A stretch of DNA of 64,000 nucleotides from Anas platyrhynchos (taxonomy: Eukaryota > Chordata > Aves > Anseriformes > Anatidae): positions 39,919,001-39,983,000 of the forward strand of contig NC_092587.1 of assembly GCF_047663525.1 (NCBI RefSeq), in the 5' to 3' direction. This document shows, piece by piece, positions 23,392 through 49,798 of this stretch. The first letter of the stretch is position 1. Each line of letters begins with the position of its first letter. The notes beneath the pieces are model-generated. The model had not been told where the DNA came from. It saw only the letters and a program-made list of their open reading frames with translations, and did not search any database. Made by a program: the position numbers and the translations under genes.

Positions 23392-26300
23392 ATGAAAATC
23401 ACATCTTTTTTTTCTGCAGTGCTCTTACTGGATCTCTTTGCCTGCTGTCGTGCGTATGCACAATATCCTTTGCCTGACATTGAAGATGCAAAGTTCATTA
23501 AAGACTGTGTGAGCGCTCACAACAACTTTCGATCCAAAACGAATCCACCAGCCAGCAATATGTTTCGCATGGTAAGGAGGCGTTTGTGATTGGTTTGAAA
23601 ATTGACATAGATGGTGCTGCTGAGTTAGCCCACCTTACTCTCCAGTTGCTCTGTGCTTTCCTTTCTGTTTCTGTCAATGATTTTGGTACTATATCTGATA
23701 GTCCTTTGTAGGAAATAAAAAAGCAATTAATTTTCACAGTACTGTTCTGTCTTATTAATTGGAAGAGGATTCATTGTCTGGGGACAGGTTGCAGCTCTAA
23801 ACTTGAGCCATAGCAAAGGACTGTGTTACAAAAAATATACGTAATGTTCAGTTCTCAGCGTTGCATTTATCTTTTTCAAAGAGGGACAGTAATCTCCCTT
23901 CTGTTAGTCCAGCTTTCATGCAGGGAAGCTGCTTGGCATTAGAAAGCTCCTGAAAGGCAACGTGGCTTATTGAAAATCTAGCACCTCACCTTGTGCCTTC
24001 CAGTCTAGAATCCGTATTGAAGAAAGGGGGTTGCCCCTTTAGACACCCCTGTAGACACCTCATCTTCCTTTGCTGTGCTATTTGGAGAGTAGCTGGGCTG
24101 GAAAAGAGATCTTCCCATAAACATAATGGATATCAGAGCAGGCCGTGGATAGGTCTCAGCTTGCTCAATGGAGTATGTAAGGAATAGGTAGAGAGAGAGC
24201 TGGGGGAGGCAAACCCAGTCAGTTTACGTCGTTACTTTGAACCCTCCAGCAGTGCCGCTTAGCTGAAAAGGAAGTTAAATGCACAACTGCAGCCTGATAT
24301 AATTTCTGTGAAAGGAAGTTCAGATAACGATGTAAAAGTCAGACTACTCAAAATGTTAATTTTTTGGCATTTTGTTAAAAAAAAAAATAATAATAATAAT
24401 TAAAAACAAGTTTGCTTTAGAATGCTAGAAAACAGGAGAAAATTTAGCTGCTCAGACCAAAGATCGTGCAGTCCTGGAAGGACAAATATACAGAAACTCT
24501 TGAATGAGAGGTGCTACATTTTATTTAAAGGCTTGTGATGGGTTTTTCTTGTGTGACTTTTTTTCAGCCTATGCAAGCTTCTATCACCCTTAATATCTCG
24601 TAGCAAAATTGCAGTCTTAACTACATGATATGTAAAAATCTCCTTGCATTTGATTTGGTCTTGCTAATTGCTAGCTTCCTTTGATAGTCTCTGATCCTTG
24701 TGCTGCAAAGAGCAAGTAATCATTGCTTATTTGCATACTTCACAAGACATTCAGCTGTCCCCGCAGAAAGCTACAGAGCATCCTTAGTATTTGACAATCC
24801 CCCATATTCTCTGTGCCCTTTCCAGTTCTAGTGTCCCTTTTTAAGACAAGGCACTGCACACAGTATTTAACAGGACTTCTTCAGTGGTGAACTTATATAT
24901 TTAGGTTCACTCTCCAGTCCCTCTCGAGGAATTTCTAATACTTTATTTGCCTTAATCTATGCTAAGCATAGATTTACAAGCAGTAAGAGTCAGCTCCAAA
25001 TCTGTCATGAATACTAAGTCAACATTATTTTTCCTCCTCATGTGCCTTTACTTGTATTTTTGTATACTGAATTTGACCTGCTATTTTATTGCCTAGTTAT
25101 CCAGCAGCATAAAATCTTTCTGTAAGTCTCACAAACCAGTCTCCTCATGGACCAGGCAGCTTAAACACTGCTGTCCAGCTCTAAGTATTGTAACAAGTCA
25201 GATACCACAGAACAGGGATAGATACTATATGTCTAGCAATATCTGAGGCAGAAAGAAGAAGAAAAAATTTGTTGTGGGAGTTGAAAAGACAGGGAAAGAA
25301 ACTGAATGTTCAGTGGGAGTCAGGGGAAAAGAAATCTTTCCAATCTTCTGTTTAAAACTGTTTGAATCCAACTAAGTCGCTGCAATGCAGTGTTGTTATG
25401 TTTTTTTGTGTGTTTGTTTTCAGCATTATTATGCCTATTATGTTTTCTTTCCTTTGTACAGTCCTGGGACCCTGCTTTAGCTAAGTCTGCCAAAGCATGG
25501 GCAAAGAAGTGCAAGTTTCGGCACAACAGCTACCTTAAAATACCACAGAAGATGCACCCCACCTTTACTTTTGTAGGAGAAAACATCTGGACTGGCACAG
25601 CCTCCATCTTTTCTGTGCATGCAGCTCTGAATGACTGGTTTAATGAATTCAAAAGCTACGATTTCAACACCCGTAGGTGTACTAGCATATGTGGTCACTA
25701 TACACAGGTGAGTTTTTTCTCTGTCTAGTGTAATGGTTTCAGAGAAAAAATGCAGGCTTAGACCAGACTGCTTTGGAACAGGAATTATGGCAGTGGTTTT
25801 GCCCTGCAGTTTACTGCTGGATGAGATTGGAACTATATTCTGAACTGCCGGGGTGTCTGAGCCCTCTGTTCACTAATGGTTGAAAAGGATTATCCCCCTA
25901 ACAATGTCATGTTTCCAAGGGAGCCAGGTAATAAGTGCAAAACCACCTAATGGTCTCAAGTCAGACTCTGCTCAAGTCAGGTCTCTGCTGTACTTTGAGC
26001 TGTTGATGTTGCTCCTGTATTGTCTGTTTTAAGCTGCCACAAGATCCATCAGTTCAGCCACTAGTACCTTCTGATTCAATACTGTGAATTCTGGTTGTTT
26101 TTTGAGTCCTTGAACAGGTGCATCACATATTTCACTTTGCCTTTCAGGTTGTTTGGGCAACAAGTTACAAAGTTGGCTGTGCAGTTCACTTCTGCCACAC
26201 AGTAGAAAATTTTCAAGGACTCGACAGAGCAGCACATTTTGTTTGTAACTATGGGCCAGCGTAAGTCAATTGTGGCATTTGGGGGTTCATTTTTCTGCTT

Positions 26301-29133
26301 TTTAACTAACCTATGACTGACCTGGTATCAGATGTTACTAATGGCAGGAGCAGTTGTAACAAATTTCTGAAGAAGCTATGTCCACATGTTAGTGGTTCCC
26401 CTGTCTGTTTAGAGCATAAGGTGCTGGGCAGAGTCTGGGCTGCAGAAAATCCCTTTCTAAAAAAGCAGGTGAGCAGGCTCAGGCTGAGGGCACTCACCAT
26501 CAGCAAGCATTGCCAGATAAAATCTGTTTTGAGTTCAGTCTCTGCAGGAATAGTAGGAACGGTGCAATTGAATTAATCGCAGAAGTAATTGCACGTCAAG
26601 TACTGTGTTCAGTTTTGGCCCTTCACTACAAGTAAGATACTGAGTTTCTGGAATGTGTTCGGGGAAGAGCTGGTGAAGGGACTGGAGAACAAGACTCATG
26701 AGGAGCGTCTGAGGGAGCTGGCATTTTTAGTTTGGAGAAGAGGAGACTGAGGGGAGACCTCATCTCTCTCTACAACTGCCTGGAAGGAGGCTGCAGCAAG
26801 GAGTGTGTTAGTCTCATTTCTCAGGTGACAAGTGACAGGATGTGAGGAAATGATCTTAAGTTGCACCGTGGGGAGGTTTAGACTAAGGACCAGGAATACT
26901 TCCTTCATGGAAAGGATGGCTAGGTACTGAAACACGCTCCCCAGGGAAGTGGTGGAATCCCTGTCCATGGAGGTGTTTAAGAGAAATGTGGATGTGGTGG
27001 CACTAAAGCACAAGATTTAGTAGTGGACTTGGTAGTGTTAGGTTGATGGTTGGAGTAGATGGGTTTAAGGGACTCTTCCAACCTAAGTGATTCTATGAAA
27101 AAAGGAAGACAATCCTCTAGTTTATTCCATGCCCTGTGATTTCTGGACATACATTTTACAGATTTATTTAAAGTATGTGTGGGTAAAGAGGGGCTAGAGG
27201 CAGATTCCTGTATAGTTAGTCTGAATAGCACAGTATTACCCAAGAAGCCTCCCCATGTCAGTGAAAGATTTAGTCTGATCCAAGAGGAATTTCAAATAAT
27301 GATAATGATCTTTTTTTTTTTTTTTGCATAAAATTATTTTTCCCTGATAATAGGTTACAATGGCAAATTATTCTAGCAATATAATGAAACCATGTATTTA
27401 AATTATTTTCCAAAGACAGAGCTAACAAAGTATTGCTCTTCTGCTCTGCAGGGGGAATTACCCAACAAAACCTTATGAAGAGGGACCACCATGCAGTAGA
27501 TGCAGTAATGACAAGTGTGTGGACAAGCTCTGTGGTAAGACCGAAGTGATCTGCTGAGGAGCTAAAAGTATCACAATTATCGGTGGAAATACAGCAGAGG
27601 AGAAATGTGCTAAATGCATAGTGGGTCTGTAGCCCACCACAGACCAACAGGACTAAGCCCTGGTTAAAATAGTATAAGAAGGAATTGATTGGGATATTTT
27701 GTTATTTAAAGCTCCCAGAGATAGAAAACAGAGTTTCCAAAGAAGAGAAATATCAGACTATTTTTTATCTTTTAACTGACCAAGAAGTCAAATCTAAAAT
27801 ATCCCTCACAGATATTCCCATCTGTTTTGGTTTTGTTTTGATTTTCTACAAGAAATAGTGTGTTTAACTTCTGCTTTCCTGCTTGTTTAATATTTTCTAT
27901 CACATTTTGCAAAAAAAATATATAGTTTGGAACCAATAATCAGGCTGTATTGAAAAACACACTTACTTCTACAGTTTTCTGAAATACCACAGTGAAAGCT
28001 TGTTTTTCCACGTTTGCACCTGTGGACTTTTGTTCTTACACCTAGTTCCAGATTTGTCAGAAACAGTGTTTTAAATAATCAGAGAGTAAAAAGCATGCAA
28101 CGGTGTCTTAAATATGACTTTTGTACAGAGGTTTAATAGAGATGTTCTCTAGCAGCCAGGCACTAGATAGCTTCAGCTGTAGAAATAATTGAGCATTTGG
28201 TATTCTTATTTCCTTCTGTGACATCCTGGCTGACTCATCTCGAAGTCACAAGTTGATGCACCACAGAAAAACTAGAAGCATCACAAAGACGAGGGGAAGG
28301 GAGAGGAGGAAGAGAGCTTTTTAAGAGCTAGATCCTAGAACCAGTTTTACCATATTCTCCTATAGGACAAATCACAATGTCAATAGGGGCACATGTGCAA
28401 TCCTGCAAATGCATCAAAGCTCTTAGTAAAGATCTGTTTTTTTTTTCTGACAAATTCTGTAGTTAGATTTGTCTGTCTCTAACTATTTAAATTTGATTTG
28501 TGTATCAATTTAAAATAAATTTCAAGTCTCCTTTTTATTTACTTCCCTCCTCCCCATGCCACCAATACTTCCCATCGCAGCTGCTTCGCTTCTGCTTCTC
28601 CTCCTGCTCAACAAAAAGCTCTAACCCCACCTCAGTGGGGAGCCCCCTTGCTGACCGAGTTCCCCGCTGCCAGATGCTTGCGACACCGGCAGCACTGCTG
28701 CCATCAGCCAGGCAGCAGCACTGGCATGCCTTTTTGTGCTAAGAAACACCACTGAGTGACGGTCACATTTATGTCCTTTTTCTCATCTCTCCACAGTAAA
28801 TGCAGGACGTGAGAAGCTGATAAGTACGTATCCAATTCTCTTTGTTGCTTTCCTATGAGCGTGGCTAAGCTGGACAAGTTCTCACACCTAATTCTTTGCT
28901 GTTTTTAAGGTTATGACAACTGGTATCCGGACTGGGACACGCAGCCCCGGCCACCACCGCGACCCCGTCCCTCCGGGCCTCCAGCCGACACCCCCCCAGC
29001 TGGGCAGCCGCGTTCCTCTTGCGACAGCTACTGTCTTAGTGTCTTGATTTTAAGGCTGCTGTTTTTGGTACTGAGCGCTGCAGGTACTCTTTTAATACAG
29101 CGAAGGTTTCCACACACGTTTATATATGAGTAA
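23392..29133 (+). CDS. GLIPR1-like CAP-domain membrane protein, gene B (six exons, 290 aa)
   Basis: Exons are 23392-23571, 25462-25707, 26148-26260, 27452-27534, 28797-28823 and 28910-29133; phases agree and the sum is 873 bp. A signal peptide of about 23 residues (ending CCRAYA) precedes the CAP domain: [70 protein letters not shown]. All four cavity residues (His, Glu, Glu, His) are present. A Cys-rich exon ([14 protein letters not shown]) and a micro-exon follow. Exon 6 encodes a Pro/Arg-rich juxtamembrane linker, about 25 residues longer than in the other family members here, and then one transmembrane helix ([16 protein letters not shown]). It is probably a type I membrane protein. Family role: human GLIPR1 is a p53 target linked to glioma and myeloid cells. 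Whether this is the GLIPR1L1 counterpart or an avian GLIPR1 paralogue is unresolved. Confidence 0.9.
26590..27100 (+). repeat. CR1 LINE fragment (3' end)
   Basis: Plus-oriented CR1 in intron 3 of gene B. It starts near GTACTGTGTTCAGTTTTGGC, matching [16 protein letters not shown] of ORF2, and ends at the tail ...AGTGATTCTATGAAA. Confidence 0.92.
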
Positions 29134-31274: not shown

Positions 31275-34200
31275 ATGATGAGCAGATTTTTCACTTGCAT
31301 GCTGGCTTTACTGCGTTTCTGCCTTTCTGCTGGCTCCTCTACACCACAGACATTGCCTGATATTGGAGATGCCGAGTTTATTGAGCAATGTGTGACAGAG
31401 CATAACAAATTCCGGTCTGCAGTGAGCCCACCAGCCAGCGACATGCTCTACATGGTAAGGGGATCTTCACTGCTTACGTGCAAGCGGGCAGCACTGATCA
31501 TTGTGGTTTTTGCAGTTCTTAAAGATGATTTCTGTAATCAAATGTTAAAAAAAAAAAAAAGAAAAAAAAAGAAAGAAATGGTCTCCTGGAGTCATAGCAG
31601 CAATTCCTTTTTACAGCAAATAAGGCTCTGATTATCAGATGGCTTTATACGGTTGGGTACGTGTATAGTTTTGCCTGGCTCAGTTTCTTTATCTGAAACT
31701 CGAGATTTCAACCCCCAACCTGGTGCTGTAGCTGGTGCTGTGAAAAGCCTCCTCATTCCAAGGCATTGCAGCCTGGGGTGTGATTTATGTGCAGACCTCA
31801 GCACATCCTTTCATACTAGAGTTGGCGAGGGCGGAGAACATTGCCAAAAGGCTTTGAAGAGCTCTGCTTTAGCTTTCTCTGCAAATCTCTCATGGCCTGA
31901 GCCAGCAGAGCTATTAGCAGTGGTTCCTAGGCACCGGGCTGCAGAGGAAGCCAAAACAAATGCAACAAGTGCAGCAGCAGTGGGGGCTGAAGGCATCAGG
32001 TCCTGCACCACAGTGCCTGTCTCTGCAGTCATCAATGCAAAAGATAATCTGTCATGATTCAAAATATAGCCCAGCCTCTGCAAGTAGCCACCTCATGTTT
32101 AAGATGGTTTGTGGCACTTGGGAAGCTGTAAATGCATGCACAAGGTTGGCTTACGGGTTGTGAAGCTCACCTCTGCCTGATCTGGGAGGCATTGTTCAAT
32201 CCCAGAAACTTGGGAGCTGCCTCTTGTAACAGCCACCACCTTTTGTGCTTTGGTTGGGTAATGCTTGAAACCTTTAATGCTAAAGGTTTCTTCCTGGGAT
32301 AACATGCAGAGGTCCATAATGATTGCCCTAATGCTGGCCTTTCCTCTTGCTTCCCTCTCATCATCCCACTTGGCCACCACCAGAAGAGGATGTAACCCCA
32401 TTCACAGTTAGCAACACCTAAAACAAAGTTCAAAACCAGCTCCATTTACATTTCTAGCTCTCAAACACCAGAAAACAAGTGCCTGTTAGGGGGGTGTAGG
32501 CAAGCAGCTAGCAAGCTGCTGACAGGGAACAATTTAGTTTCTCTTCTGCTGTGTTTTTTATTTCAGATTTCTTTAGTGGGACATTAGGAAACCTCTCCAG
32601 TGTTGACCGCAGATTTCCAGTGAACATTGCTTTATCTTTTTGAAAAGTAGATCTGAAATTTGTGGAAAAAAAAGAGCGAATAAACAAATAAGGGTCATTA
32701 CAAAGAAAAGAAGAAGTAAAATCATGGTAGCTTTCATTTAAAGCACTGAAAAAAAAAAATCCAAAACTTCACCACCAACAAAAACAGTCTTGAGTATGAC
32801 CTCTCACAGGAATAATTTTACATGGAGAAATCAGTAAAATGTATGATCAAATCTTTTATGAAAGTAAAAGTATTGAAAACCACATGTATATTAATTTTTT
32901 AACCAACTAAAGCACTTCAAAAAAGAGGAAAAGAAGATGACTTGTTTTCAAGATAACAAGAGAAAAAAGAAACTTCTGTTTCCTGTAGATAACTGTTCAC
33001 CTAGATACGTAAAAGTGAAGAATATGAACACAAGGCATTTCCACCTTTTAGAAAAAAATATTTTTTTTAAAGAAAATACTAGACAGAAACTCCTTTAAGT
33101 ACAAGTGACAAAGCCCCAACAGCTACAGTAGTAAAACAGCTGTTAAAAATAATGATCTACTTTTTTTTTTTTTTTTTTTCAACCAGACAAATGTGAACCC
33201 TTCTTCCCATTCACCCTTCACAGTCCCCCAAAGTACTGTCTAGGTCTGTTCCAAACCAGCAGAAAGATCCTCACTGCTTATATCAAGGCTTTCACAACAG
33301 TGAATGTTCCTGAATTACTTTTCACCAGTCATACAATCAGTTTTCCTTCCCTAAATAAATGAAAAACTCATCTGAGTTACAAAACCAAAACTGAAAAATG
33401 GTTCCTGAAAAACACCCACCTCCAATTACTATTTTCCCAAACAGCAGTGATATTTATAGGCAAACCTCCCTTTCCTGTGCTTTTTTACTCATGCAGTTGA
33501 TTGTAATCTTTTGGGTAAATGTGGTTTTGTAAGCAAACTATGATTAAAACTACGCTTAAACTAAAGACCATTCCAGACTATAAATCTCTGCCCATTGCTT
33601 TTTCAGCCAGCTGAAGCATTTGTACAAAAAAGGAAAAGTACCTTTACACTGAGCTGTTATTATTAACACTGCTAAAGGATGAAGGAGAAAATAAGGGTGC
33701 AGACTCTTAAGCAGAATCTGAAAAACTAGACTTCAGAGCACTAAGATCCACCAATCACTGTCACACAGCTTTCATTGTGGTCTTATTCTTGTGAGCTCAC
33801 AGCATTGCCAGAATGTAAACTTCAGCCTCTGTCTTGACTTGCAGAAATGCTAGGAGTGGAAGATAACCTGTGAACAACAGCAGATTTTGTTCATCCTCTT
33901 TAAAAGCTATCATCTAAGGAATTATCAGCTGTTCACTTCAACTAAGACCCTCTGCCCCCAACCTTACCTTTCATATTCCAGATACTGTGTTTCTAGGCAA
34001 ATTACTTGTGTGTTAGTTTTGTAGGAAAACTCCCACCCCAAATGCTTGCCACAGGGAGAAATGGAAGACATGGGTTAGAAAATAATTGCAAATCTCTGCA
34101 GATCTGTTTTGATGTGATCTTACAAATTTTAATTACTTACTAAGAGCATAAACTTTACACATATTATTTCAGTACATATATATCATCAGTACCAAAAAGC

Positions 34201-37200
34201 TATATTATGTAAAACAGACAAAAAGTCTAAGAACCTCCAAGTCCTTTTCCTCTGTCACCATTAATGATACATTCAAAACAGCTTCTCTAGTGGTTCTGTA
34301 ATTTGCAGAAGTAACTGAGAGATTTTAATCCATACATAGAAGGACAAATAAGGAATTTTCATTACAAAAAAAAAAAAAAAAAAAAAGCTACAGGCACACA
34401 GAGGTGGCACAGCACTGTGTTTGCTTAATCAGGTTGTGTGCACAAGAAAACCCAGAGGAATCTGGCAACACCTCCGACGCAAACAAAAGACATTTATATA
34501 ATCCAATGGTTTAAATAACAGCTCTCTGTAGGATTGAATACCAAGCGCATGAGTGACTCCACAAATACAAATTCAGCGCTAACATTTGAAGCATCAACTG
34601 TGATTGCCCGCCACCCCAAGATCTTCCCTACATTTAACAAGTGACAAAATTCCCAGGAGACACAAACCTACAAGCCAATTTACCATGCAGAATTGTCTCA
34701 GCAGAAGCAAAATCCAGACTAGCCCATGGCATAGACACTTCTGAGTCCCAGCTGCGCCAGAAGCTGCTCCGCATTACCGCATTGCTTAAGTACCCAAGCC
34801 ATTTTCTCTTGTTTTTATCTTGCAGACTTGGGATCCAGATTTGGCGAAGACTGCGAAAGCTTGGGCAAAGAGATGCCAGTTTAAACATAACACATACCTC
34901 AAAGAGCCAGGGCAGACTCACCCCAGGTTTACCTCTGTTGGAGAAAACATCTGGACTGGCTCGCTCTCGATATTTTCTGTGAAAGAAGCCATCACCTCCT
35001 GGTACAATGAGGTCAAAGACTACAGTTATACCGCCAATAGTTGTAGAAGAGTGTGCGGCCATTACACACAGGTAGGCATGGAACTTCTCCACCTGAACCA
35101 AGAACCAGCCCTGCCGTTGGGACACAGGAATTCTAGACTTCTGTCCAAGATTCAACAAACCAAGAGCGGTAGTGATTTTTTGTGCCTGTATGCATGAAAT
35201 GTTCTTACATCCCCACTTTGTAAAGGAAAAGAGTCCTTTTTTTTTTTTTTTACATACCCCAGTTGTATTTTGTTTCCAGGAACAAGCAGTAGCCTAAAAT
35301 CAGGAAGCGGCAGTGGCAGTGGGCTGCAGTGTGGGGTGGGATGAGGTCCCCCCTCTGTCAGACAGCCTCTGTGTGGCACTACGAGCTGTGCCAAAGGCTG
35401 ATGAAATGCCCCCACATCAGGCTGGGACACGTGGGGCACTTCTGCTACAGCTGAGTGCTGCCAACACGTACGGAGATGGCTGCAGCTCCTGCAAGCATCA
35501 CTTTTCCCAACCTTTTTTTTCCTAACCAGTATTCCCAAGGAGAAAGGACAAAGAGAGGAACGGGAGGGCCACTGCCTTGCAACCCTGCAATTGTTAACCT
35601 TGGTTATCAGAGAGCAGGGCTGCTCACAAACGGGCCTCTAGGGGCTGGATTTTGATGTGAGGCTGTTCAATACTTTCCAGGGAGATAAACTACTGCTCTC
35701 CTCTGCAAAGTGTGCCCAAGGAGCACTCCTCAGCCCACTTGCTGTGTGACACAGAGGAGGGCAGGGCTTTTCCCTCATGCTTTAGATGTTAAAGCAGATG
35801 TTCATTCACTGGCGTTCATGTTTGTCTTTTCAGATTGTTTGGGCTCGAAGCTACAAGGTTGGCTGTGCTGTCCACTTCTGTCCCACGGTGCAGTACTTCT
35901 CAGGAAAAAATGCAGCACACTTTATCTGCAACTACGGGCCGGCGTAAGCTTTTCCATGACAAACATTTCACAGGGGTTGGGTCCTGCCCCTTCTTCCTTC
36001 CCACAATGTACAGCTTCCTTCACACAATGTGCAGCCCATTTTTCACGTGTTTATGGGTCCCCAAAACAGAGACAGATGCACACCTCTATCCAAGCAGCCG
36101 TTTTTCACTAAACAGGGGCTATGTGATGTAGCCAAAAAGCAGTGGCACTGGTAGAAAGAGTAAAATGTAAGATACTGAAATGAGCCTACTTAAGCGATCA
36201 CTGGAAAACTGTTCCCTTGCTCCTCAGTGCCAAGGTGGCCCCAGACAGTTGCCAAGGTACAGACCCAGAGTCTAAAAATATTTACACATTTGCCTGCAGA
36301 ATTAAACTTTCAGGTCAATGGTTTGGGTAAAAGTGTGCAGCGCTTGCAGCTGCAGCCTGAGCTTTATCGGACTTTACCCCCACAAAGCTGGGGCTGCTCG
36401 AGGCAAAAGTTTATCCAGAGGTCCTTCATATGCATATTGGCTGCAACTGGGATGGATGCTTTCTACCTTTTCCCAGCTAATTAATGCCAGCATCTAATTT
36501 CCATTGGAGATGGCTTTTGAGCTGGGTGAGCACACTGCAAACAGGCTAAGAAATGGGCCTGCTAAGGCCTGCTAAGAAATGGGGCCGTGTCACATCCAGC
36601 ACTGCCTGCATCCTGCACATCCTGCCCTGGGCACACAGGGACATGGAGGCTCTGCAAATGCCTGCCGAGCCTCAGCTCCCAGCATGTGAGGGCAGGATCC
36701 TGCCTAGGTCCTGAGCTGCACAGCCCTGCTGGGTCAGAGCATGAAGGTCACTGCCAGAGCACGAAGGCCCTGCCATGGGTGCTGGCAGCCTGGCCACATC
36801 TGCAGGGAATTTGGGTACATCTAGGGCTAGGGGGGAGTGGGGTGGTCAGGGAGGGCAACCCAAAAAACTGTTCCCCATCAACGCAGGTGAAGCAAAACCC
36901 AAGCTGAAAAGCAAAAGAGCAGGAGGAATTGGCATGCTGCTAATGGCAGGTTCAGAGCAGTGTTACTTTCCTTCACAGGGGGAATTATGGCTGGCACCCC
37001 TACGAGACGGGAGCAGCATGCAGCAAATGCAAGGGCGATCAGTGTGCCAAGAACCTGTGTCGTAAGTAGAAAACCCACCCTCCTCCACAAGCACACGCAG
37101 AAAGAGCACACAGAAGACTCTGGCAGAAGGCATACTGTTGTCCCAAACACAGTAGGAAAAAAAAAAAGTGCAATCAGAAGCCACGATAGCAGTGATGCTT

Positions 37201-37938
37201 AGGGATCTTAAAGGTGTTAAAACACCAGCATCGTAAGAGGGAGAGGGGATTCCTGATGGATGGGATAGTTTGACATCAGCTACAGATTGCGGTTCTTAAA
37301 TATAAGTACTGGGGAAAATAAATAAATTAATTAATTAAAAAAAATATACAGTAGGGACAACAACAGGCATATTGGCAGCAGGACGTACCCCACACATGCC
37401 CTCTTGGGATATCATTGTACCGGAGAGTCCTCTCTATGCCAGCCACTATCAGGGGGCAGTCAGTAAGATGCGACCAAGCTCTCTGCAGCAAATCCCCAAG
37501 AGCCACTGCAAGGCTCTCCTGAAGTCAACTGGTTCTTGTTTCTGGTAAGAAATGCAGCTCCCATTGCTGTATTTCTTCTCTGCCCATTGTCAGGCTCATA
37601 GTTAATTCTCTTTTGGTTAGATCAAATTATTCACAATGTCTAAGCCTGCTTCCATTCACTTCTTTTCTCTCTCCAGGAAACCCAGAGCGTGACAAAGTCA
37701 TTAGTAAGTACCACAGATGTTTCTGCTTCAATTTGTTGCCCTCAGCACAGTTACACCTAAAACCCAGTGATCTGTTTTCTTTCCAGGTGATTCCAAGTGG
37801 TATCCAGCCTGGGACAGACCTGCCTGTGATGAGTACTGCATTTCTGTGGTTGTTTTAAGGCTGCTCTTCTTTATTCTGACAATCCCAGCCGCCTGGATCC
37901 TGCCCAAGTACTGGTCTATAGCACCTGCCAGCGAGTAA
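31275..37938 (+). CDS. GLIPR1: GLIPR1 CAP-domain membrane protein, gene C (six exons, 265 aa)
   Basis: Exons are 31275-31454, 34826-35071, 35834-35943, 36979-37061, 37677-37703 and 37787-37938, with consensus splice sites and matching phases. Length 265 aa, against 266 for human GLIPR1. After a signal peptide (MMSRFFTCMLALLRFCLSAG) come [91 protein letters not shown], a Cys-rich segment and a C-terminal transmembrane helix (VVVLRLLFFILTIPAAW). The boundary ASDMLYM/TWDP is identical to human GLIPR1, and all four CAP cavity residues are present. A second in-frame ATG at 31278 could also start translation. Downstream candidate poly(A) hexamers lie near 38020-38034. Apart from its duplicate D, this is the CAP gene nearest KRR1, as GLIPR1 is in human. 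Confidence 0.9.
31455..34825 (+). other. Intron 1 of gene C
   Basis: A 3.4-kb intron. Its 3' part, from about 33954 onward, is duplicated in gene D (from 45240); the part before that is not, which places the deletion edge. It holds poly-A/T runs (31546-31570, 33163-33179, 34366-34386) and no recognisable coding sequence. Confidence 0.7.
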
Positions 37939-38654
37939 CGCACAGGAGACTGTGAGAGCATTTGGGTTGATTTTTTCCTTTCCTGTTTGTAAACTACTAG
38001 AAGCACACACACACACAAAATAATAAAAATAAAATATGCGTAGAGACATTGTTTTCATCCACGGCTGATTTAGAAATACAGAAATACTGTCTTCAATTCA
38101 TGGAGGAGCCAGGAGAGCTGACAAGGAGCCTTCACATCGTTCAGAAGCAATAACTGGTTTTAAACTACACACTTATTTTTACAAAGCAGAGCAGTGTGGG
38201 AGGGATGGGGGACATGGGGCAGCTGCCCACGCCACCTGCCCGAGGAGGGCTGCAGGGTGGCCAAGGAGGGGGCAGAGCAAACATCTCTCATGCCTATCAC
38301 ACTCTGTGAACCCTCCTCCAGCAAGATGCAGCAGCATGGTGTTGAGTAGACTGGAGAGATTTTTTTTTCGATTTAAACCTTTTTCTCTAAGAATTTTTGG
38401 ACCTACCATGCTCACTTCATCCAGTGGCAGGCAGTGTGTTGCCCCATCTCACAGTGCTCTGGGGCCGCTGGTATTTCTCTTTGCTTAGGACCCTGTGCCA
38501 GGACACAGAGCTTCACGTGTGTGTAAATGTGATTATTTACAACCTCAATCTTTTATTTTTTTATTTATTTTTTTATTTTATTTTTTCCCTGAGCATGGGG
38601 TTTTTGACTGCTGCTTCAATCAATAAACCATTAATAAATAATTAACAAACCATT

Positions 38655-41608
38655 TGAGGGCTTTAAACTAGGTAAGAAGGGGGATGGGGCTGAGGCAAGG
38701 ACTGTTGGGGCTGTGCCAGGGGGAACAATGGCAAGGCCAGGGGATAAGGCAATGGCCCAGCTGAAGTGCATCTACACCAATGCACGCAGCATGGGTAACA
38801 AACAGGAGGAGCTGGAAGCCATCGTGCAGCAGGCAGGCTACGACTTGGTTGCCATCACGGAGACGTGGTGGGACCAGTCTCATGACTGGAGTGCTGCAAT
38901 GCCTGGCTATAAGCTCTTCAGAAGGGACAGGCAGCACAGAAGGGGTGGTGGTGTGGCTCTCTATATTAGAGAGTCTTTCGAGGTTGTAGAACTCGAGGCT
39001 AGGAATGACAAGGTCGAGTCCCTTTGGGTTAGGATCGGCTGGGACAAAAAGGCTAGCGTCCTGGTCGGGGTCTGCTATAGACCGCCGAACCAGGATGAGG
39101 AGACGGATGGAGTTCTGCAGGCAGCTGACAGAAGTTGCAAAATCATCAGCGCTTGTACTCGTGGGGGACTTCAACTTCCCTGACATATCCTGGAAGCACA
39201 ACACAGCCCAGAGGAAGCAGTCTAGGAGGTTTCTGGAGAGCGTGGAAGATAGCTTCCTGACACAGCTGGTTAGTGAACATACTGGGGGTGGTGCCCTGCT
39301 AGACCTTCTCTTCACAAACAGAGAAGGACTGCCGGAGGATGTGATTGTTGGGAGCTGTCTTGGGCAGAGTGACCACGAAATGGTGGAGTTCACTATTCTT
39401 GGCAAAGCCAGGAAGGGGACCAGTAAAACCGCTGTATTGGACTTTCGGAGGGCTGACTTTGGGCTGCTCAGGACACTGGTTGGTGGAGTTCCTTGGAAGG
39501 CAGTTCTGAAGGGCAGAGGGGTCCAGGAAGGCTGGGCGCTCTTCAAGAGGGAAATTCTAATGGCGCAGGAGTGGTCTGTCCCCATGTGCCCAAAGATGAG
39601 CCAGCGGGGAAGAAGACCGGCCTGGCTCAACAGAGAACTATGGCTTGAGCTTAGGAGAAAAAAGAGGGTTTATAATCTTTGGAAAAGTGGGCAGGCCACT
39701 AGGGAGGACTACAAGGATGTAGCGAGGCTGTGCAGGGACAAAATTAGGAAGGCCAAAGCTCATCTGGAGCTCAATCTGGCTACTGCCGTTAAAGATAACA
39801 AAAAACATTTTTATAAATACATCAACACAAAAAGGAGGACTAAGGAGAATCTCCATCCTTTACTGGATGCAGGAGGAAACTTAGTTACAAGAGATGAGGA
39901 AAAGGCAGAGGTGCTCAATGCCTTCTTTGCCTCAGTCTTTAGCGGCAATACTGGTTGTTCTCTGGATACCCAGTACCCTGAGCTGGTGGAAGGGGATGGG
40001 GAGCAGGATGTGGCCCTCACCATCCATGAAGAAATGGTTGGTGACCTGCTACGGCACTTGGATGTGCACAAATCAATGGGGCCGGATGGGATCCACCCAA
40101 GGGTACTGAGAGAACTGGCAGAGGAGCTGGCCAGGCCCCTATCCATCATTTATCAGCAGTCCTGGCTATTGGGGGAGGTCCCAGCTGACTGGCAGCTAGC
40201 AAATGTGACGCCCATCTACAAGAAGGACCGGAGGGCAGACCCGGGAAACTACAGGCCTGTCAGTTTGACCTCAGTACCAGGGAAGCTCATGGAGCAGATC
40301 CTCTTGGGAGTCATCATGCAGCACTTGCAGGGCAAGCAGACGATCAGGCCCAGTCAGCATGGGTTTATGAAAGGCAGGTCCTGCTTGACGAACCTGATCT
40401 CCTTCTATGACCAACTGACGTTCTGGGTGGACGAGGGAAAGGCTGTGGATGTGGTCTACCTTGACTTCAGCAAGGCTTTTGACACCGTCTCCCACAGCAT
40501 TCTCCTCAAGAAACTGGCTGCTCTTGGCTTGGACTGGCACATGCTTTGTTGGGTTAGAAACTGGCTGGATAGCCGGGCCCAAAGAGTCGTGGTAAATGGA
40601 GTCAAGTCCAGTTGGAGGCCAGTCACTAGTGGCGTCCCCCAGGGCTCAGTGCTGGGGCCAGTCCTCTTTAATATCTTCATCAATGATCTGGACGAGGGCA
40701 TTGAGTGCACCCTCAGTAAGTTTGCAGATGACACCAAGTTAGGTGCGTGTGTCGATCTGCTCGAGGGTAGGAAGGCTCTGCAGGAGGATCTGGATAGGCT
40801 GCACCGATGGGCTGAGGTCAACTGCATGAAGTTCAACAAGGCCAAGTGCCGGGTCCTGCACCTGGGGCGCAATAACCCCAAGCAGAGCTACAGGCTGGGA
40901 GATGAGTGGTCAGAGAGCTGCCAGGCAGAGAAGGACCTGGGAGTGATGGTGGACAGTCGGCTGAATATGAGCCAGCAGTGTGCTCAGGTGGCCAAGAAGG
41001 CCAACGGCATCCTGGCTTGTATCAGAAACAGTGTGGCCAGCAGGGCTAGGGAGGTGATCGTCCCCCTGTACTCGGCTCTGGTGAGGCCGCACCTCGAGTA
41101 CTGTGTTCAGTTTTGGGCCCCTCGCTACAAGAAGGACATCGAGGTGCTTGAGCGGGTCCAAAGAAGGGCGACGAAGCTGGTGAGGGGCCTGGAGAACAAG
41201 TCCTACGAGGAGCGGCTGAGGGAGCTGGGCTTGTTCAGCCTGGAGAAGAGGAGGCTCAGGGGCGACCTTATCGCTCTCTACAGATACCTTAAAGGAGGCT
41301 GTAGTGAGGTGGGGGTTGGCCTGTTCTCCCACGTGCCTGGTGACAGGACGAGGGGGAATGGGCTTAAGTTGCGCCAGGGGAGTTTTAGGTTAGATCTTAG
41401 GAAGAACTTCTTTACTGAAAGGGTTGTTAGGCACTGGAACGGGCTGCCCAGGGAGGTGGTGGAGTCACCATCCCTGGAAGTCTTTAAAAGACGTTTAGAT
41501 GTAGACCTTAGGGATATGGTTTAGTGGGGACTGTTAGCGTTAGGTTAGAGGTTGGACTCGATGATCTTGAGGTCTCTTCCAACCTAGAAAATTCTGTGAT
41601 TCTGTAAT
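38655..41608 (+). mobile_element. Nearly complete CR1 ORF2 (LINE), one frameshift
   Basis: The endonuclease half opens at about 38713 (YTNARSMGNKQEELE, AITETWWDQSHDWS, GVALYIRES). It shifts frame once near 39105-39120 into a long open frame running to 41524, which carries the rest of the endonuclease ([23 protein letters not shown]) and the reverse transcriptase ([10 protein letters not shown]-like start, [37 protein letters not shown], and the catalytic FADDTKL). The C-terminus is typical ([20 protein letters not shown]). The 3' tail is ATTCTGTGATTCTGTA. It is 5'-truncated just before ORF2. The matching position downstream of gene D (49700-49712) is empty, so it inserted after the B-C duplication and is young. 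Confidence 0.95.
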
Positions 41609-41698
41609 TATTTCCTGCTCCCCATGCATGGCAATCATGTATCTGCAACATGATCTAAGGTTTGACTCTCTCTGCACAAAACAAAACACATTCAGCTC

Positions 41699-42554
41699 CA
41701 ACCAGCTTGTAGAACAGCTAGTGAGAATACAAATCCCAGCACTGCCCATCCTACTGCCCCAGAAAGGGATCAGGCTTGGAATTTTACCTCAGGAGTGGTA
41801 ATCCTACAGCTTCTCTCCTCACATGAGCACAGAAAACTTCCAAGAATTTCAGCCTATTAGATAAACAGCTGGCTAGTGAAGGTGAGAATCAACACCCTCA
41901 TTTATGCTTGGGATTTCAATGTCATACTTTTGCTAAACACCAAATTAGAAGCTTAGAAGGTTCCACAGCAAGCTGCTGCTTAGGAACAATTTTTATTGTT
42001 TGTTTGTTTGTTTTTTTGTCCTGGTGGGGACACAAAATTTAATATATGCAGTTTCGCTAATTCCATTTATTCCTAGAGTAACTCTGAAATGGAAGAAAGA
42101 TTCTACAAAATAATTGCAGTTGACTTGGCACAACTAAGCTGCACAGTAGGAAAAGCACCTGAACAGCAGATCTGTATTGTGTCATAGCTACAATCTTTAT
42201 GGTTGACGGAGGTTTTAGCAAAGTTGCTGCACAGCACCTCTTCAGATAAGACCTGCAGCCACAGAATGGCTTGGCATTCAACCAGGATGGAAGGCATTCA
42301 AAGAAGAGGCAGACATTTAAGTGTGGCAGTACCTCTGGGCAATATGCGTGGCAGATGCGTGTTCCTCAGCTTACCCTCAGACAGCCAGCGGTGATGTCAG
42401 ATGGTTCTGTACCTTGTGAAGCAATTCCACTTCCTGGTGCTCTGACTTTGAAGAGCTTCCACACCCAGAGGACTACAGAGAAACTGCTTAGCAGCATTAT
42501 CTCCACCTAAGGGATATTTCTTTTAAATCTTAAGAAAAAATACATTGAAGAATT
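41699..42554 (+). promoter_or_regulatory. Duplicated B-type upstream region of gene D
   Basis: Nearly identical to about 22525-23391 upstream of gene B, including the ETS-type CACTTCCTG about 120 bp before the ATG. It begins abruptly at 41699 against sequence that belongs downstream of gene C. Small indels separate the copies, for example a few bases just before the ATG. Confidence 0.75.
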
Positions 42555-45500
42555 ATGAAAATCACGTCTTTTATTTCTGCAGTGCTCTTACTGGATCTCT
42601 TTGCCTGCTGTCGTGCGTATGCACAATACCCTTTGCCTGACATTGAAGATGCAAAGTTCATTGAAGACTGTGTGAGCGCTCACAACAACTTTCGATCCAA
42701 AACGAATCCACCAGCCAGCAATATGTTTCGCATGGTAAGGAGGCGTTTGTGATTGGTTTGAAAATTAACATAGATGGTGCTGCTGAGTTAGCCCACCTTA
42801 CTCTCCAGTTGCTCTGTGCTTTCCTTTCTGTTTCTGTCAATGATTTTGGTACATTTTGGAACATGGTCTGTTCTGAAAGTAGTAGGACTGGCTTTTTCCT
42901 GGGCGAACGGGCGGACGAGAGGCGGTCTGCCCGCGCCTGATCGGTGGAGGTGGATATTGGGAACACTGGGAAAAATCGGCAGTCGGCTGTCGGCCGTTGA
43001 AGAGAGGAGGTCGCTTGTCCTGTGAACACCTTTCGAAACGCCTCATCACAGAGAATCATGGAGCGTTTACTGGAGCAGCGATACGCAATCAAATTTTGTG
43101 TAAAACTTGGTAAAACGGGCAAAGAGACTCACAACATGATTAAGGAGGCCTATGGTGTTGCTGCCATGGGTAGATCGGGTGTTTCTGAGTGGCACAAGCT
43201 GTTCTGAGAAGGTAGGGAAAGAGTGGAAAACGACGACCGCTCCAGACGCCCTTCAACCAGCAAGACCAATGAAAATGTGTCGTGAGTGAAAAATTTATGT
43301 GGAAGTCTTCAGAAGACTGCGAAAACGCATTGCTCGTGTCCGCCCAGCCATCGTCAACAATTGGTGGCTGCACCATGACAACGCGCCGAGCCACATAGCG
43401 TTCCGCGTAGTGGAGTATCTTGCCCAGCACAAGGTGGCAACACTGCCTCAGCCCCCCTACAGCCCCGACTTGGCCCTGCCAGACTTTTTCCTATTCCCGA
43501 TAATAAAATCGATGCTCAAGGGGAAGCATCACGCATCAGTAAAAGCGCTTCAAGAGGCCATGAAGAGGGAGCTAAACAGCATTCCAGTCCAGGCGTTCCT
43601 GGAGGAGTATGAAAACTGGAAAAATCATTGGCAGCAGTGTGTAGATGTGGAAGGGTGCTACCTTGAAAAATTCTAATCGTTTCTTCTATTCTCATGAATA
43701 ATTATTTAAAAATAAAAATGAGTCCTACTACTTTCAGAACAGACCATGTATATTTGATAGTTCTTAGTAGGAAATAAAAAAGCAATTAATTTTCACGGTA
43801 CTGTTCTGTCTTATTAATTGGAAGAGGATTCATTGTCTGGGGACAGGTTGCAGCTCTAAACTTCAGCCATAGCAAAGGACTGTGTTACAAAAAATATACG
43901 TAATGTTCAGTTCTCAGCGTTGCATTTATCTTTTTCAAAGAGGGACAGTAATCTTCCTTTTATGTTAGTCCAGCTTTCATACAGGGAAGCTGCTTGGCAT
44001 TAGAAAGCTCCTGAAAGGCAACGTGGCTTATTGAAAATCTAGCACCTCACCTTGTGCCTTCCAGTCTAGAATCCATATTGAAGAAAGGGGGTTGCCCCTT
44101 TAGACACCCCTATAGACACCTCATCTTCCTTTGCTGTGCTGTTTGGAGAGTAGGGATACCAGTAGCTCGGCTGGAAAACAGATCTTCCCATAAACATAAT
44201 GGATATCAGAGCAGGCCGTGGATAGGTCTCAGCTTGCTCAATGGAGTATGTAAGGAATAGGTAGAGAGAGAGCTGGGGGAGGCAAACCCAGTCAGTTTAC
44301 GTCATTACTTTGAACCCTCCAGCAGTGGCGCTTAGCTGAAAAAGAAGTTAAATGCACAACTGCAGCCTGATATAATTTCTGTGAAAGGAAGTTCAGATAA
44401 CGATGTAAAAGTCAGACTACTCAAAATGTTAATTTTTTGGCATTTTGTTAAAAAAAAAATAATAATAATAAAAAAAGTTTGCTTTAGAATGCTAGAAAAC
44501 AGGAATAAATTTAGCTGCTCAGACCAAAGATCGTGCAGTCCTGGAAGGACAAATATACAGAAACTCTTGAATGAGAGGTGCTACATTTTATTTAAAGGCT
44601 TGTGATGGGTTTTTCTTACGTGACTTTTTTTCAGCCTATGCAAGCTTCTATCACCCTTAATATCTTGTAGCAAAATTGCAGTCTTAACTACATGATATGT
44701 AAAAATCTCCTTGCATTTGATTTGGTCTTGCTAATTGCTAGCTTCCTTTGATAGTCTCTGATCCTTGTGCTGCAAAGAGCAAGTAATCATTGCTTATTTG
44801 TATACTTCACAAGACATTCAGCTGTCCCCGCAGAAAGCTACAGAGCATCCATAGTATTTGACAATCCCCCATATTCTCTGTGCCCTTTCCAGTTCTAGTG
44901 TCCGTTTTTAAGATGAGGCACTACACACAGTATTTAACAGGACTTCTTCAGTGGTGAACTTATATATTTGGGTTCATTCTTCAGTCCCTCTCAAGGAATA
45001 TCTAATACTTTAGTTGCCTTTTATCCTACTGCTAAGCATAGATTTACAAGCAGTAAGAGTCAGCTCCAAATCTGTCATGAATACTAAGTCAACATTATTT
45101 TTCCTCCTCATGTGCCTTTACTTGTATTTTTGTATACTGAATTTGACCTGCTGTTTTATTGCCTAGTTATCCAGCAGCATAAAATCTTTCTGTAAGTCTC
45201 ACAAACCAGTCTCCTCATGGACCAGGCAGCTGGCCGGTGTCTGCCCCCAACCTTACCTTTCATATTCCAGATACTGTGTTTCTAGGCAAATTACTTGTGT
45301 GTTAGTTTTGTAGGAAAACTCCCACCCCAAATGCTTGCCACAGGGAGAAATGGAAGACATGGGTTAGAAAATAATGGCAAATCTCTGCAGATCTGTTTTG
45401 ATGTGATCTTACAAATTTTAATTCCTTACTAAGAGCATAAACTTTACACATATTATTTCAGTACATATATATCATCAGTACCAAAAAGCTATATTATGTA

Positions 45501-48500
45501 AAACAGACAAAAAGTCTAAGAACCTCCAAGTCCTTTTCCTCTGTCACCATTAATGATACATTCAAAACAGCTTCTCTAGTGGTTCTGTAATTTGCAGAAG
45601 TAACTGAGAGATTTTAATCCATACACAGAAGGACAAATAAGGAATTTTCATCACAAAAAAAAAGGCTACAGGCACACAGAGGTGGTACAGCACTGTGTTT
45701 GCTTAATCAGGTTGTGTGCACAAGAAAACCCAGAGGAATCTGGCAATACCTCCAATGCAAACCAAAGATATTTATATAATCCAATGGTTTAAATAACAGC
45801 TCTCTGTAGGATTGAATAGCAAGTGCATGAGTGACTCCACAAATACAAATTCAGCGCTAACATTTGAAGCATCAACTGTGATTGCCCACCACCCCAAAAT
45901 CTTCCCTACATTTAACAAGTGACAAAACTCCCAGGAGACACAAACCTACAAGCCAATTTACCATGCAGAATTGTCTCAGCAGAAGCAAAATCCAGACTAG
46001 CCCATGGCATAGACACTTCTGAGTCCCAGCTGCTCCAGAAGCTGCTCCGCATTACCGCATTGCTTAAGTACCCAAGCCATTTTCTCTTGTCTTTATCTTG
46101 CAGACTTGGGATCCAGATTTGGCGAAGACTGCGAAAGCTTGGGCGAAGAGATGCCAGTTTAAACATAACATGTACCTCAGAGAGCCAGGGCAGACTCACC
46201 CCAGGTTTGCCTCTGTTGGAGAAAACATCTGGACTGGCTCGTTCTCGATATTTTCTGTGAAAGAAGCCATCACCTCCTGGTACAATGAGGTCAAAGACTA
46301 CAATTATACCACCAATAGTTGTAGAAGAGTGTGTGGCCATTACACACAGGTAGGCATGGAACTTCTCCACCTGAACCAAGAACCAGCCCTGCCACTGGGA
46401 CACAGGAATTTCTGTGTCCCAACAGATTTCTGTCCAAGATTCAACAAACCAAGAGCGGTAGTGATTTTTTGTACCTGTATGCATGAAATGTTCTTACATC
46501 CCCACTTTGTAAAGGAAAAGAGTCCTTTTTTTTTTTTTTTAACATCCCCCAGTTGTGTTTTGTTTCCAGGAAGAAAACTGGACAGCCATCAAATGACCAG
46601 GTTTAGCCAAGCAGTAGCCTAAAATCAGGAAGCGGCAGTGGCAGTGGGCTGCAGTGTGGGGTGGGATGAGGTCCCCCCTCTGTCAGACAGCCTCTGTGTG
46701 GCACTACGAGATGTGCCAAAGGCTGATGAAATGCCCCCACATCAGGCTGGGACACGTGGGGCACTTCTGCTACAGCTGAGTGCTGCCAACACGTACGGAG
46801 ATGGCTGCAGCTCCTGCAAGCATCACTTTTCCCAACCTTTTTTTTCCTAACCAGTATTCCCAAGGAGAAAGGACAAAGAGAGGAACGGGAGGGCCACTGC
46901 CTTGCAACCCTGCAATTGTTAACCTTGGTTATCAGAGAGCAGGGCTGCTCACAAACAGGCCTCTAGGGGCTGGATTTTGATGTGAGGCTGTTCAATACTT
47001 TCCAGGGAGATAAACTACTGCTCTCCTCTGCAAAGTGTGCCCAAGGAGCAGTCCTCAGCCCACTTGTTGTGTGACACAGAGGAGGGCAGGGCTTTTCCCT
47101 CATGCTTTAGATGTTAAAGCAGATGTTCATTCACTGGCGTTCATGTTTGTCTTTTCAGATTGTTTGGGCTCGAAGCTACAAGGTTGGCTGTGCTGTCCAC
47201 TTCTGTCCCACGGTGCAGTACTTCTCAGGAAAAAATGCAGCACTCTTCATCTGCAACTACGGGCCGGCGTAAGCTTTTCCATGACAAATATTTCACAGGG
47301 GTTGGGTCCTGCCCCTTCTTCCTTCCCACAATGTGCAGCTTGATCAGATCAGCCCATTTTTCACGTGTTTATGGGTCCCCAAAACAGAGACAGATGCACA
47401 CCTCTATCCAAGCAGCCGTTTTTCACTAAACAGGGGCTATGTGATGTAGCCAAAAAGCAGTGGCACTGGTAGAAAGAGTAAAATGTAAGATACTGAAATG
47501 AGCCTACTTAAGCGATCACTGGAAAACTGTTCCCTTGCTCCTCAGTGCCAAGGTGGCCCCAGACAGTTGCCAAGGTACAAACCCGGAGTCTAAAAATATT
47601 TACACATTTGCCTGCAGAATTAAACTTTCAGGTCAATGGTTTGGGTAAAAGTGTGCAGCGCTTGCAGCTGCAGCCTGAGCTTTATCGGACTTGGATTCAC
47701 AAAGCTGGGGCTGCTCGAGGCAAAAGTTTATCCAGAGGTCCTTCATATGCATATTGGCTGCAACCGGGATAGATGCTTTCTACCTTTTCCCAGCTAATTA
47801 ATGCCAGCATCTAATTTCCATAAGAGATGTCTTTTGAGCTGGGTGAGCACACTGCAAACAGGCTAAGAAATGGGCCTGCTAAGGCCTGCTAAGAAATGGG
47901 GCCGTGTCACATCCAGCACTGCCTGCATCCTGCACATCCTGCCCTGGGCACACAGGGACATGGAGGCTCTGCAAATGCCTGCCGAGCCTCAGCTCCCAGC
48001 ATGTGAGGGCAGGATCCTGCCTAGGTCCTGAGCTGCACAGCCCTGCTGGGTCAGAGCATGAAGGTCACTGCCAGAGCACGAAGGCCCTGCCATGGGTGCT
48101 GGCAGCCTGGCCACATCTGCAGGGAATTTGGGTACATCTAGGGCTAGGGGGGAGTGGGGTGGTCAGGGAGGGCAGCCCGAAAAACTTCCCCATCAACGCA
48201 GGTGAAGCAAAACCCAAGCTGAAAAGCAAATGAGCAGGAGGAATGGGCATGCTGCTAATGGCAGGTTCAGAGCAGTGTTACTTTCCTTCACAGGGGGAAT
48301 TATGGCTGGCACCCCTACGAGACGGGAGCAGCATGCAGCAAATGCAAGGGCGATCAGTGTGCCAAGAACCTGTGTCGTAAGTAGAAAACCCACCCTCCTC
48401 CACAAGCACACGCAGAAAGAGCACACAGAAGACTCTGGCAGAAGGCATATTGTTGTCCCAAACACAGTATGAAAAAAAAAAGTGCAATCAGAAGCCACGA

Positions 48501-49247
48501 TAGCAGTGATGCTTAGGGATCTTAAAGGTGTTAAAACACCAGCATCACAAGAAGGAGAGGGGATTCCTGATGGATGGGATAGTTTGACATCAGCTACAGA
48601 CAGCGTTTCTCAAATATAAGTACTGGGAAAAATAAATAAATAAATAAATAAAATAAACAGTAAGGACAACATCAGGCATATTGGCAGCAGGACGTACCCC
48701 ACACATGCCCTCTTGTGATATCATTGTACCGGAGAGTCCTCTCTATGCCAGCCACTATCAGGGGGCAGTCAGTAAAATGCGACCAAGCTCTCTGCAGCAA
48801 ATCCCCAAGAGCCACTGCAAGGCTCTCCTGAAGTCAACAGGTTCTTGTTTCTGGTAAGAAATGCAGCTCCCATTGCTGTATTTCTTCTCTGCCCATTGTC
48901 AGGCTCATAGTTAATTCTCTTTTGTTTAGATCAAATTATTCACAATGTCTAAGCCTGCTTCCATTCACTTCTTTTCTCTCTGCAGGAAACCCAGAGCGTG
49001 ACAAAGTCATTAGTAAGTACCACAGATGTTTCTGCTTCAATTTGTTGCCCTCAGTGCAGTTACACCTAAAACCCAGTGATCTGTTTTCTTTCCAGGTGAT
49101 TCCAAGTGGTATCCAGCCTGGGACAGACCTGCCTGTGATGAGTACTGCATTTCTGTGGTTGTTTTAAGGCTGCTCTTCTTTATTCTGACAATCCCAGCCG
49201 CCTGGATCCTGCCCAAGTACTGGTCTATAGCACCTGCCAGCGAGTAA
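42555..49247 (+). CDS. Chimeric GLIPR1-like CAP gene D: exon 1 of B fused to exons 2-6 of C (265 aa)
   Basis: Exons are 42555-42734, 46104-46349, 47159-47268, 48294-48376, 48986-49012 and 49096-49247. The total is 798 bp with phases 0,0,2,1,1, no stop and consensus splice sites. Exon 1 encodes the B-type signal peptide and CAP start (MKITSFISAV..., [20 protein letters not shown]) and differs from B by four bases. Exons 2-6 are C-type. By my count exon 2 differs from C at nine of 246 bases (six residues), exon 3 changes one residue (AAHF to AALF), and exons 4-6 are identical. All four CAP cavity residues are kept (HPRF, GENIW, WYNEV, CGHYTQ), as are the Cys-rich segment and transmembrane tail. 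It is probably a membrane CAP protein with GLIPR1-like body under B-type promoter control. Expression is unproven; an assembly artefact is unlikely given scattered differences in both halves. Confidence 0.85.
42867..43747 (+). mobile_element. Mariner-like DNA transposon, internally deleted
   Basis: Perfect 29-bp terminal inverted repeats (ACATGGTCTGTTCTGAAAGT... and its complement) bound about 0.88 kb in intron 1 of gene D. The N-terminal transposase helix-turn-helix region (43058-43207: MERLLEQRYAIKFCVKL, GRSGVSEWHKLF) is followed by a jump to the C-terminal catalytic part (HHDNAPSH; YSPDLALPDFFLFP; ends CYLEKF at about 43675). Roughly 130 residues, including the first catalytic Asp, are missing relative to a usual transposase of about 345 aa, and the frame is broken, so it is non-autonomous. 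Gene B intron 1 has the empty site (GGTACTATATCTGATAG, near 23694). A clean TA duplication is not visible on the left. Confidence 0.92.
45231..45240 (+). other. Deletion/fusion junction between B-type and C-type intron 1
   Basis: Up to ACCAGGCAGCT (45221-45231) the sequence follows gene B intron 1 (to 25171). From TCTGCCCCCAACC (45240 on) it follows gene C intron 1 (from about 33951). About eight bases between (GGCCGGTG) match neither and look like filler from end joining. The missing interval corresponds to about 8.8 kb of copy 1: exons 2-6 of B, the B-C spacer and exon 1 of C. Confidence 0.85.
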
Positions 49248-49315
49248 CGCACAGGAGACTGCGAGAGCATTTGGGTTGATTTTTTCCTTTCCTGTTTGAA
49301 AACTACTGGAAGCAC

Positions 49316-49328
49316 ACACACACACACA

Positions 49329-49367
<39 letters not shown>
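49316..49367. repeat. (CA)n and (TA)n microsatellite
   Basis: ACACAC repeats followed by about 18 TA units in the 3' UTR of gene D. The matching place after gene C has only the short CA run. Confidence 0.9.
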
Positions 49368-49373
<6 letters not shown>

Positions 49374-49624
49374 AAAATATGCCTAGAGACATTGTTTTCA
49401 TCCACGGCTGATTTAGAAATACAGAAATACTGTCTTCAATTCATGGAGGAGCCAGGAGAGCTGACAAGGAGCCTTCACGTCATTCAGAAGCAATAAAGTG
49501 GGTTTTAAACTACGCACTTATTTTTACAAAGCAGAGCAGTGTGGGAGGGATGGGGGGCATCCTGGACCCTGTGCCAGGACACAGAGCTTCACGTGTGTGT
49601 AAATGTGACTATGTCCCACCTCAA

Positions 49625-49626
<2 letters not shown>

Positions 49627-49662
<36 letters not shown>
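49627..49662. repeat. Poly-T tract
   Basis: An uninterrupted run of 36 T. At the matching place downstream of gene C (38547-38587) the tract is broken by A residues, so it has become homogeneous in the D copy. Confidence 0.9.
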
Positions 49663-49798
49663 CCTGAGCATGGGGTTTTTGACTGCTGCTTCAATCAATA
49701 AACCATTTTTTCCTGCTCCCCATGCATGGCAATCACCTATCTGCAACATGATCTAAAGCTTAACTCTTTCTGCACAGAACAAAACACATTCAGCTCCA

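Follow-up and report, generated by a model that had tools for sequence, protein, structure and literature searches.

The gene D, at positions 42555..49247 of the stretch analysed, is very probably a real chimeric tandem duplicate within the GLIPR1-like cluster of the duck Anas platyrhynchos, produced by duplication of a block carrying two neighbouring genes followed by an internal loss from the copy. The whole stretch (the window) covers 64,000 nucleotides of contig NC_092587.1, and both parents are still present in it beside D. Parent B (23392..29133) encodes 290 amino acids and parent C (31275..37938) encodes 265; each consists of six exons with an open frame. The genes, exons, flanks and elements described below all lie on the + strand.

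Structure of the fused gene and its copied segments

Comparison of the 64-kb window with itself by BLAST gives four matches on the + strand. Two of these relate D to B, pairing 22525-23689 with 41700-42852 (97.3%) and 23690-25161 with 43749-45231 (96.2%), and two relate it to C, pairing 33951-35282 with 45240-46572 (95.8%) and 35283-38037 with 46608-49348 (97.4%). Chance is excluded, as E=0 for every match. Overall, 41700-45231 is a copy of the B region 22525-25161, and 45240-49560 is a copy of the C region 33951-38215. The first-pass annotation had traced the upstream sequence, exon 1 and early intron 1 to B, and the later intron 1, exons 2-6 and 3' flank to C, and both assignments are borne out; the copied block starts at 41700, upstream of the 42555 given there.

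When spliced, D consists of six exons with an open frame of 798 nt encoding a GLIPR1/CAP protein of 265 amino acids. The five introns are all GT-AG, and exon 1 joins exon 2 at 42734/46104, in agreement with the open frame, the intact splice sites and the junction first reported. Exon 1 (42555..42734) is B-type, being identical to B 23392-23571 at 176 of 180 bases, and is followed by the donor GTAAGG. The remaining exons are C-type. Exon 2 (46104..46349) differs from C at 9 of 246 bases, giving six replacements, and exon 3 (47159..47268) at 2 of 110, where H171L is the sole replacement. Exon 4 (48294..48376; 0/83), exon 5 (48986..49012; 0/27) and exon 6 (49096..49247; 0/152), the last of which encodes the putative C-terminal hydrophobic helix and the stop, do not differ from C. 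Exon 1 is 174 nt long in the family member A and 180 nt in each of B, C and D, and it ends in phase 0 in all four, as had been stated for every family member; it is because of this shared phase that the exchange of exon 1 is in frame.

Upstream of the start codon, 41700..42554 is a copy of the proximal upstream sequence and 5' UTR of B (22525-23391), with 16 substitutions and four small gaps over 855 sites. The B promoter assigned earlier to D can mean at most this proximal copy, the 855 bp (41700-42554) before the ATG; beyond 41700 the upstream sequence is the downstream flank of C with a CR1-like element. That D might thereby come under new control, as first suggested, is conjectural.

Intron 1 contains the seam between the two parents. 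The B-derived part is split by an element at 42852..43749, which is absent from B and which we take to be a mariner remnant; its left edge is uncertain. This element carries 36-nt terminal inverted repeats (42861-42896 and 43714-43749) that are 92% complementary, and its match to DDE_3 is weak (21.0 bits, under the 28.6 cut-off). The rest of the B-derived intron follows at 43750..45231, with 41 substitutions over 1466 sites against 23690-25161. Eight filler bases (45232..45239) are then found that occur in neither parent here by direct three-sequence comparison, after which the intron continues as C from 33951 (45240..46103; 18 substitutions over 863 sites against C 33952-34825).

The copied 3' flank of C (49248..49797) matches 37939-38215, 38488-38632 and 41607-41699 in turn. 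The last two pieces correspond to 49564-49797 of D, and the duplicated flank ends at about 49797. In the C flank the match stops at 38632 and restarts at 41607, on either side of an element at 38633..41606 that is presumably a CR1. It contains an open 839-aa ORF with an RVT_1 match of 120.7 bits, and is without counterpart in the matching flank of D. The C and D downstream matches reach 41699|41700, where the sequence on the left corresponds to D's own flank up to 49797 and that on the right to 22525 onward, so that the block containing B and C has been tandemly duplicated with its junction at 41699..41700.

Two further differences are seen in the 3' flanks. About 270 bp of the C flank (38216-38487) have no counterpart beside D, which reflects either an insertion in C or a deletion in D. 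In addition, D has a canonical AATAAA (49492-49497) where C has AATAAC (38149-38154), so polyadenylation may take place at different sites in C and D.

The C-type CAP body proposed for D is confirmed by the copying of exons 2-6 from C and by a match to Pfam CAP PF00188 of 84.4 bits (cut-off 21.1). Residues 26-214 of D also match the GLIPR1 structure 3q2r_A (phmmer E=7.9e-79). The CAP tetrad, which we take to be H81, E100, E122 and H139, is encoded entirely within exon 2, and these four residues and the HYTQ motif are invariant in a 37-row alignment; D conserves each of the 53 positions at which the 36 remaining proteins do not vary. Exon 1 had been described as a B-type signal peptide. Its origin from B stands, whereas its restriction to a signal does not: judged by eye, it encodes a putative signal peptide followed by approximately 37 mature residues, among them H43-N44, which are invariant in the alignment. 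The seam therefore interrupts the CAP region itself instead of coinciding with a domain boundary. N- and C-terminal hydrophobic stretches are also seen by eye, and the predicted model of D contains a helix at 231-258 (pLDDT 83 and 89 in two blocks). With a mean pLDDT of 51.4 the model is too poor for the seam to be judged.

Coding changes and possible use of D

Exon 1 of D differs from B by two silent and two replacement changes, and the body differs from C by three silent changes and seven replaced residues, one of which arises through two base changes. With this two-change codon left out, the Nei-Gojobori comparison of D with C gives dN 0.0129 and dS 0.0304, and the resulting dN/dS of about 0.4 is also compatible with a drifting D and constraint confined to C. 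It is a serious possibility, if somewhat short of an even one, that D is a real but unexpressed or drifting duplicate, with a frame that is open merely because the gene is young. In a neutral simulation of the D lineage the frame was kept in 16% of runs; an open frame surviving this often under neutrality is weak as proof of function. Such drift would also accommodate the excess of replaced residues over silent changes in the body, the replacement of H171, which is present in 34 of 36 homologues, and the insertion of the mariner-like element within intron 1.

Two counts speak against this reading. Exons 4-6 are unchanged (0/262 against 147/6058 for noncoding sites, p=0.003, for exons picked post hoc), and the value becomes p ~0.04 by hand arithmetic when the D lineage only is counted. 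Similarly, no indels are found in 798 nt of coding sequence compared with 21 in 6058 noncoding sites (Poisson 0.06; Fisher p=0.16). Exon 2, with its 9 differences in 246 bases, evolves no slower than noncoding sequence (p=0.21), and the coding sequence as a whole (15/798 vs 147/6058) does not differ from it (p=0.39).

The changes are unevenly spread along the body, in that exon 2 holds six of the seven replacements and differs at 9/246 bases, compared with 2/372 in exons 3-6 (p=0.009). At N127, D has gained a sequon for N-glycosylation that is present in 0 of the 36 other aligned proteins.

With Cairina as outgroup, six changes fall on D and none on C, with one site ambiguous (p=0.03), as would be expected if D were drifting. 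This relative-rate result is only a hint, because a translated Cairina intron stretch leans the same way (6 to 1 by hand count, p=0.125) and because sites 96, 130 and 171 conflict.

A function for D is thus possible from its sequence. The chances are about even that it is transcribed from the proximal promoter of B and yields a CAP protein, which would be secreted or membrane-tethered and have a C-type body. A fuller proposal is tentative and on balance unlikely. It takes D to be a young working CAP gene of the Anas lineage whose C-type body is expressed from the proximal B promoter in the tissues that express B, whose CAP core has changed fast with the tail held constant, and whose mariner-like element acts as an optional exon in some transcripts.

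Age, reality and formation of the duplicate

The noncoding sequence of D has diverged from its parents to the same extent in both halves (58/2439 for the B part and 89/3619 for the C part, both 2.4%; p=0.87), which fits a single event. The bird substitution rate is near 1.9e-9 per site per year, at which 2.4% would make D, as a rough estimate, some 6 million years old. The 3' flank is more divergent than the gene body, with 13/277, 9/144 and 7/87 differences in its successive pieces, the middle of which includes a poly-T run. Windows of 400 sites vary from 0.75% to 4%, and partial end windows reach 5.1%. These differences may reflect gene conversion or an earlier origin.

The protein sequences suggest that the duplication post-dates the split between Anas and Cairina. 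E114, K167 and K203 are common to C and D of Anas and absent from Cairina, and none of 15 further avian C-type proteins has them (with one gap at 203). K113, H185 and P209 also unite Anas C and D against Cairina, yet 9, 5 and 1 of those 15 proteins, respectively, have them too. There is a minor chance that the duplication is older than the split and that later gene conversion homogenised C and D, which would agree with the more divergent 3' flank and the uneven windows. Residue 130 points in that direction, since it is T in D and in 13 of 15 other avian C-type proteins and A in Anas C and Cairina, and D matches Chauna at 96 and 171. The three shared residues E114, K167 and K203 argue against such an early date.

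The fusion is also found among database proteins. P0001, 'glioma pathogenesis-related protein 1-like [Anas platyrhynchos]', is identical to D over its 265 amino acids and belongs to a 90% cluster of six members; the record is an annotation and not proof that D is expressed. A second entry, P0002 ('peptidase inhibitor R3HDML-like [Anas platyrhynchos]'), is modelled at 427 aa; in it a B-type exon 1 (98.1% against D, 96.2% against B) is followed by pieces of the intron-1 mariner-like element and a D-type body. In SETMAR a host gene has taken up a mariner transposase, and P0002 resembles it in that coding pieces of a mariner-like element separate its exon 1 from its CAP body. Unlike SETMAR, P0002 is a listed model only, and the plain joining of exon 1 to exon 2 that gives D (= P0001) needs no such exon. 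Compared with the window, P0002 has W to R and I to T changes in the element and a K to E change in the body. Its first 20 residues fit the upstream sequence of B in frame (22648-22707), where the window's copy in D has a two-base gap, so P0002 is no plain copy of the window's D. It probably represents another allele or dataset and may stem from an older assembly, and its presence makes it less likely that other assemblies lack the third copy.

To assess how far the fusion has spread, exon 1 and body were typed separately in 126 proteins among the matches listed, which are representatives of 90% clusters. A strong B-type start with a C-type body was found in P0001 and P0002 only. Ten more showed the B-then-C order by far smaller margins; these carry reptile names, and the exon 1 types are poorly separated there. 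The two parts were concordant in 97 proteins, and one or both were undecided in a further 17. Close relatives of D may be hidden behind the cluster representatives. Among the 36 matches listed for the C protein (E <= 1e-105), none of the named Anas proteins has a C exon 1, and the named Anas entries are P0001 and P0002. The intact gene C (31275-37938) may be missing from the annotation or lie outside the length range searched. D is thus already listed as a gene in the database, yet no published description of it, or of GLIPR1 in Anas platyrhynchos, was found in the titles and abstract openings of open-licence PMC articles.

An error of assembly was also considered. In earlier platypus, zebra finch and hummingbird assemblies, false duplications arose mainly as heterotype duplications (PMC9516828). 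By such an error D would be a deletion allele of the other haplotype, fusing B to C, that the assembler placed beside the full allele, and the layout of the window, with a full haplotype, then a fusion haplotype and a common flank, is what this would give. The copies are less alike than alleles, the 2.4% by which they differ across 6 kb of noncoding sequence being 3.5 to 8 times the mean duck diversity of ~0.003-0.007 given in the accessible part of PMC10542157; the corresponding parts of PMC6050300 and PMC7430827 yielded no per-site diversity usable for duck comparison. Each copy has its own element insertions, no N is found at the junction (0 N in 64 kb), and P0002 is an instance of the fusion seen elsewhere, though it does not show the fusion to lie in cis with C. 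A false duplication is accordingly very improbable, and D is probably not an artefact.

Both seams of D are resolved at the base level (41699|41700 and 45231-45240) and record how it very probably formed. The junction shows that some 16.2 kb, starting at 22525 ahead of B and ending shortly beyond C, was duplicated head to tail, with the C downstream sequence joined to the B upstream sequence through at most one shared base. The seam shows that 8789 bp of the copy, from intron 1 of the copied B to intron 1 of the copied C, was lost, probably as the later step, and the loss sealed by non-homologous end joining with the eight filler bases. The same product would result if one replication-based event switched templates twice. 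Unequal homologous exchange between the first introns of B and C, which the tandem arrangement of these paralogues might invite, is scarcely credible and was rejected as the fusion-making step, since the parents share no homology at the seam, filler bases are present, and reciprocal exchange predicts a C5'/B3' gene between B and C and not a B5'/C3' gene after C. D alone carries the mariner-like element, and C alone is flanked by the CR1-like element. The two insertions, into intron 1 of D and the flank of C, would therefore most simply have followed the duplication.

Relation to known genes and meaning

Chimeric duplicates are already a known kind. In the accessible text of Rogers et al. 2017 (PMC5460883), the chimeras formed by tandem duplication in Drosophila yakuba include a case of 'duplication followed by secondary deletion', and expression was raised for 24 of 76. 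D resembles these in joining the 5' part of one gene to the 3' part of its neighbour, and in the secondary deletion. It differs in having paralogues of one family as parents and in retaining the reading frame with every splice site; the copy, ~2.4% diverged, is known here from sequence alone. D shares the CAP domain, and apparently a C-terminal hydrophobic helix, with GLIPR1 and GLIPR1-like CAP proteins (structures 3Q2R/3Q2U). Unlike those proteins, it draws its exon 1 from one avian paralogue and its body from another.

D allows the birth of a hybrid gene from neighbouring bird paralogues to be read at the base level, with the parents adjacent as controls. If D is silent, it calls for caution in annotation, as the database entry says plainly 'GLIPR1-like' and one model includes transposase. 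In the available parts of the sources, a role in mouse fertilization is reported for GLIPR1L1 (PMC6824042), and expression work on the chicken eggshell also came upon GLIPR1 (PMC2827412). If D is expressed, it would allow the exchange of a promoter to be separated from change in the protein within the GLIPR1 family.
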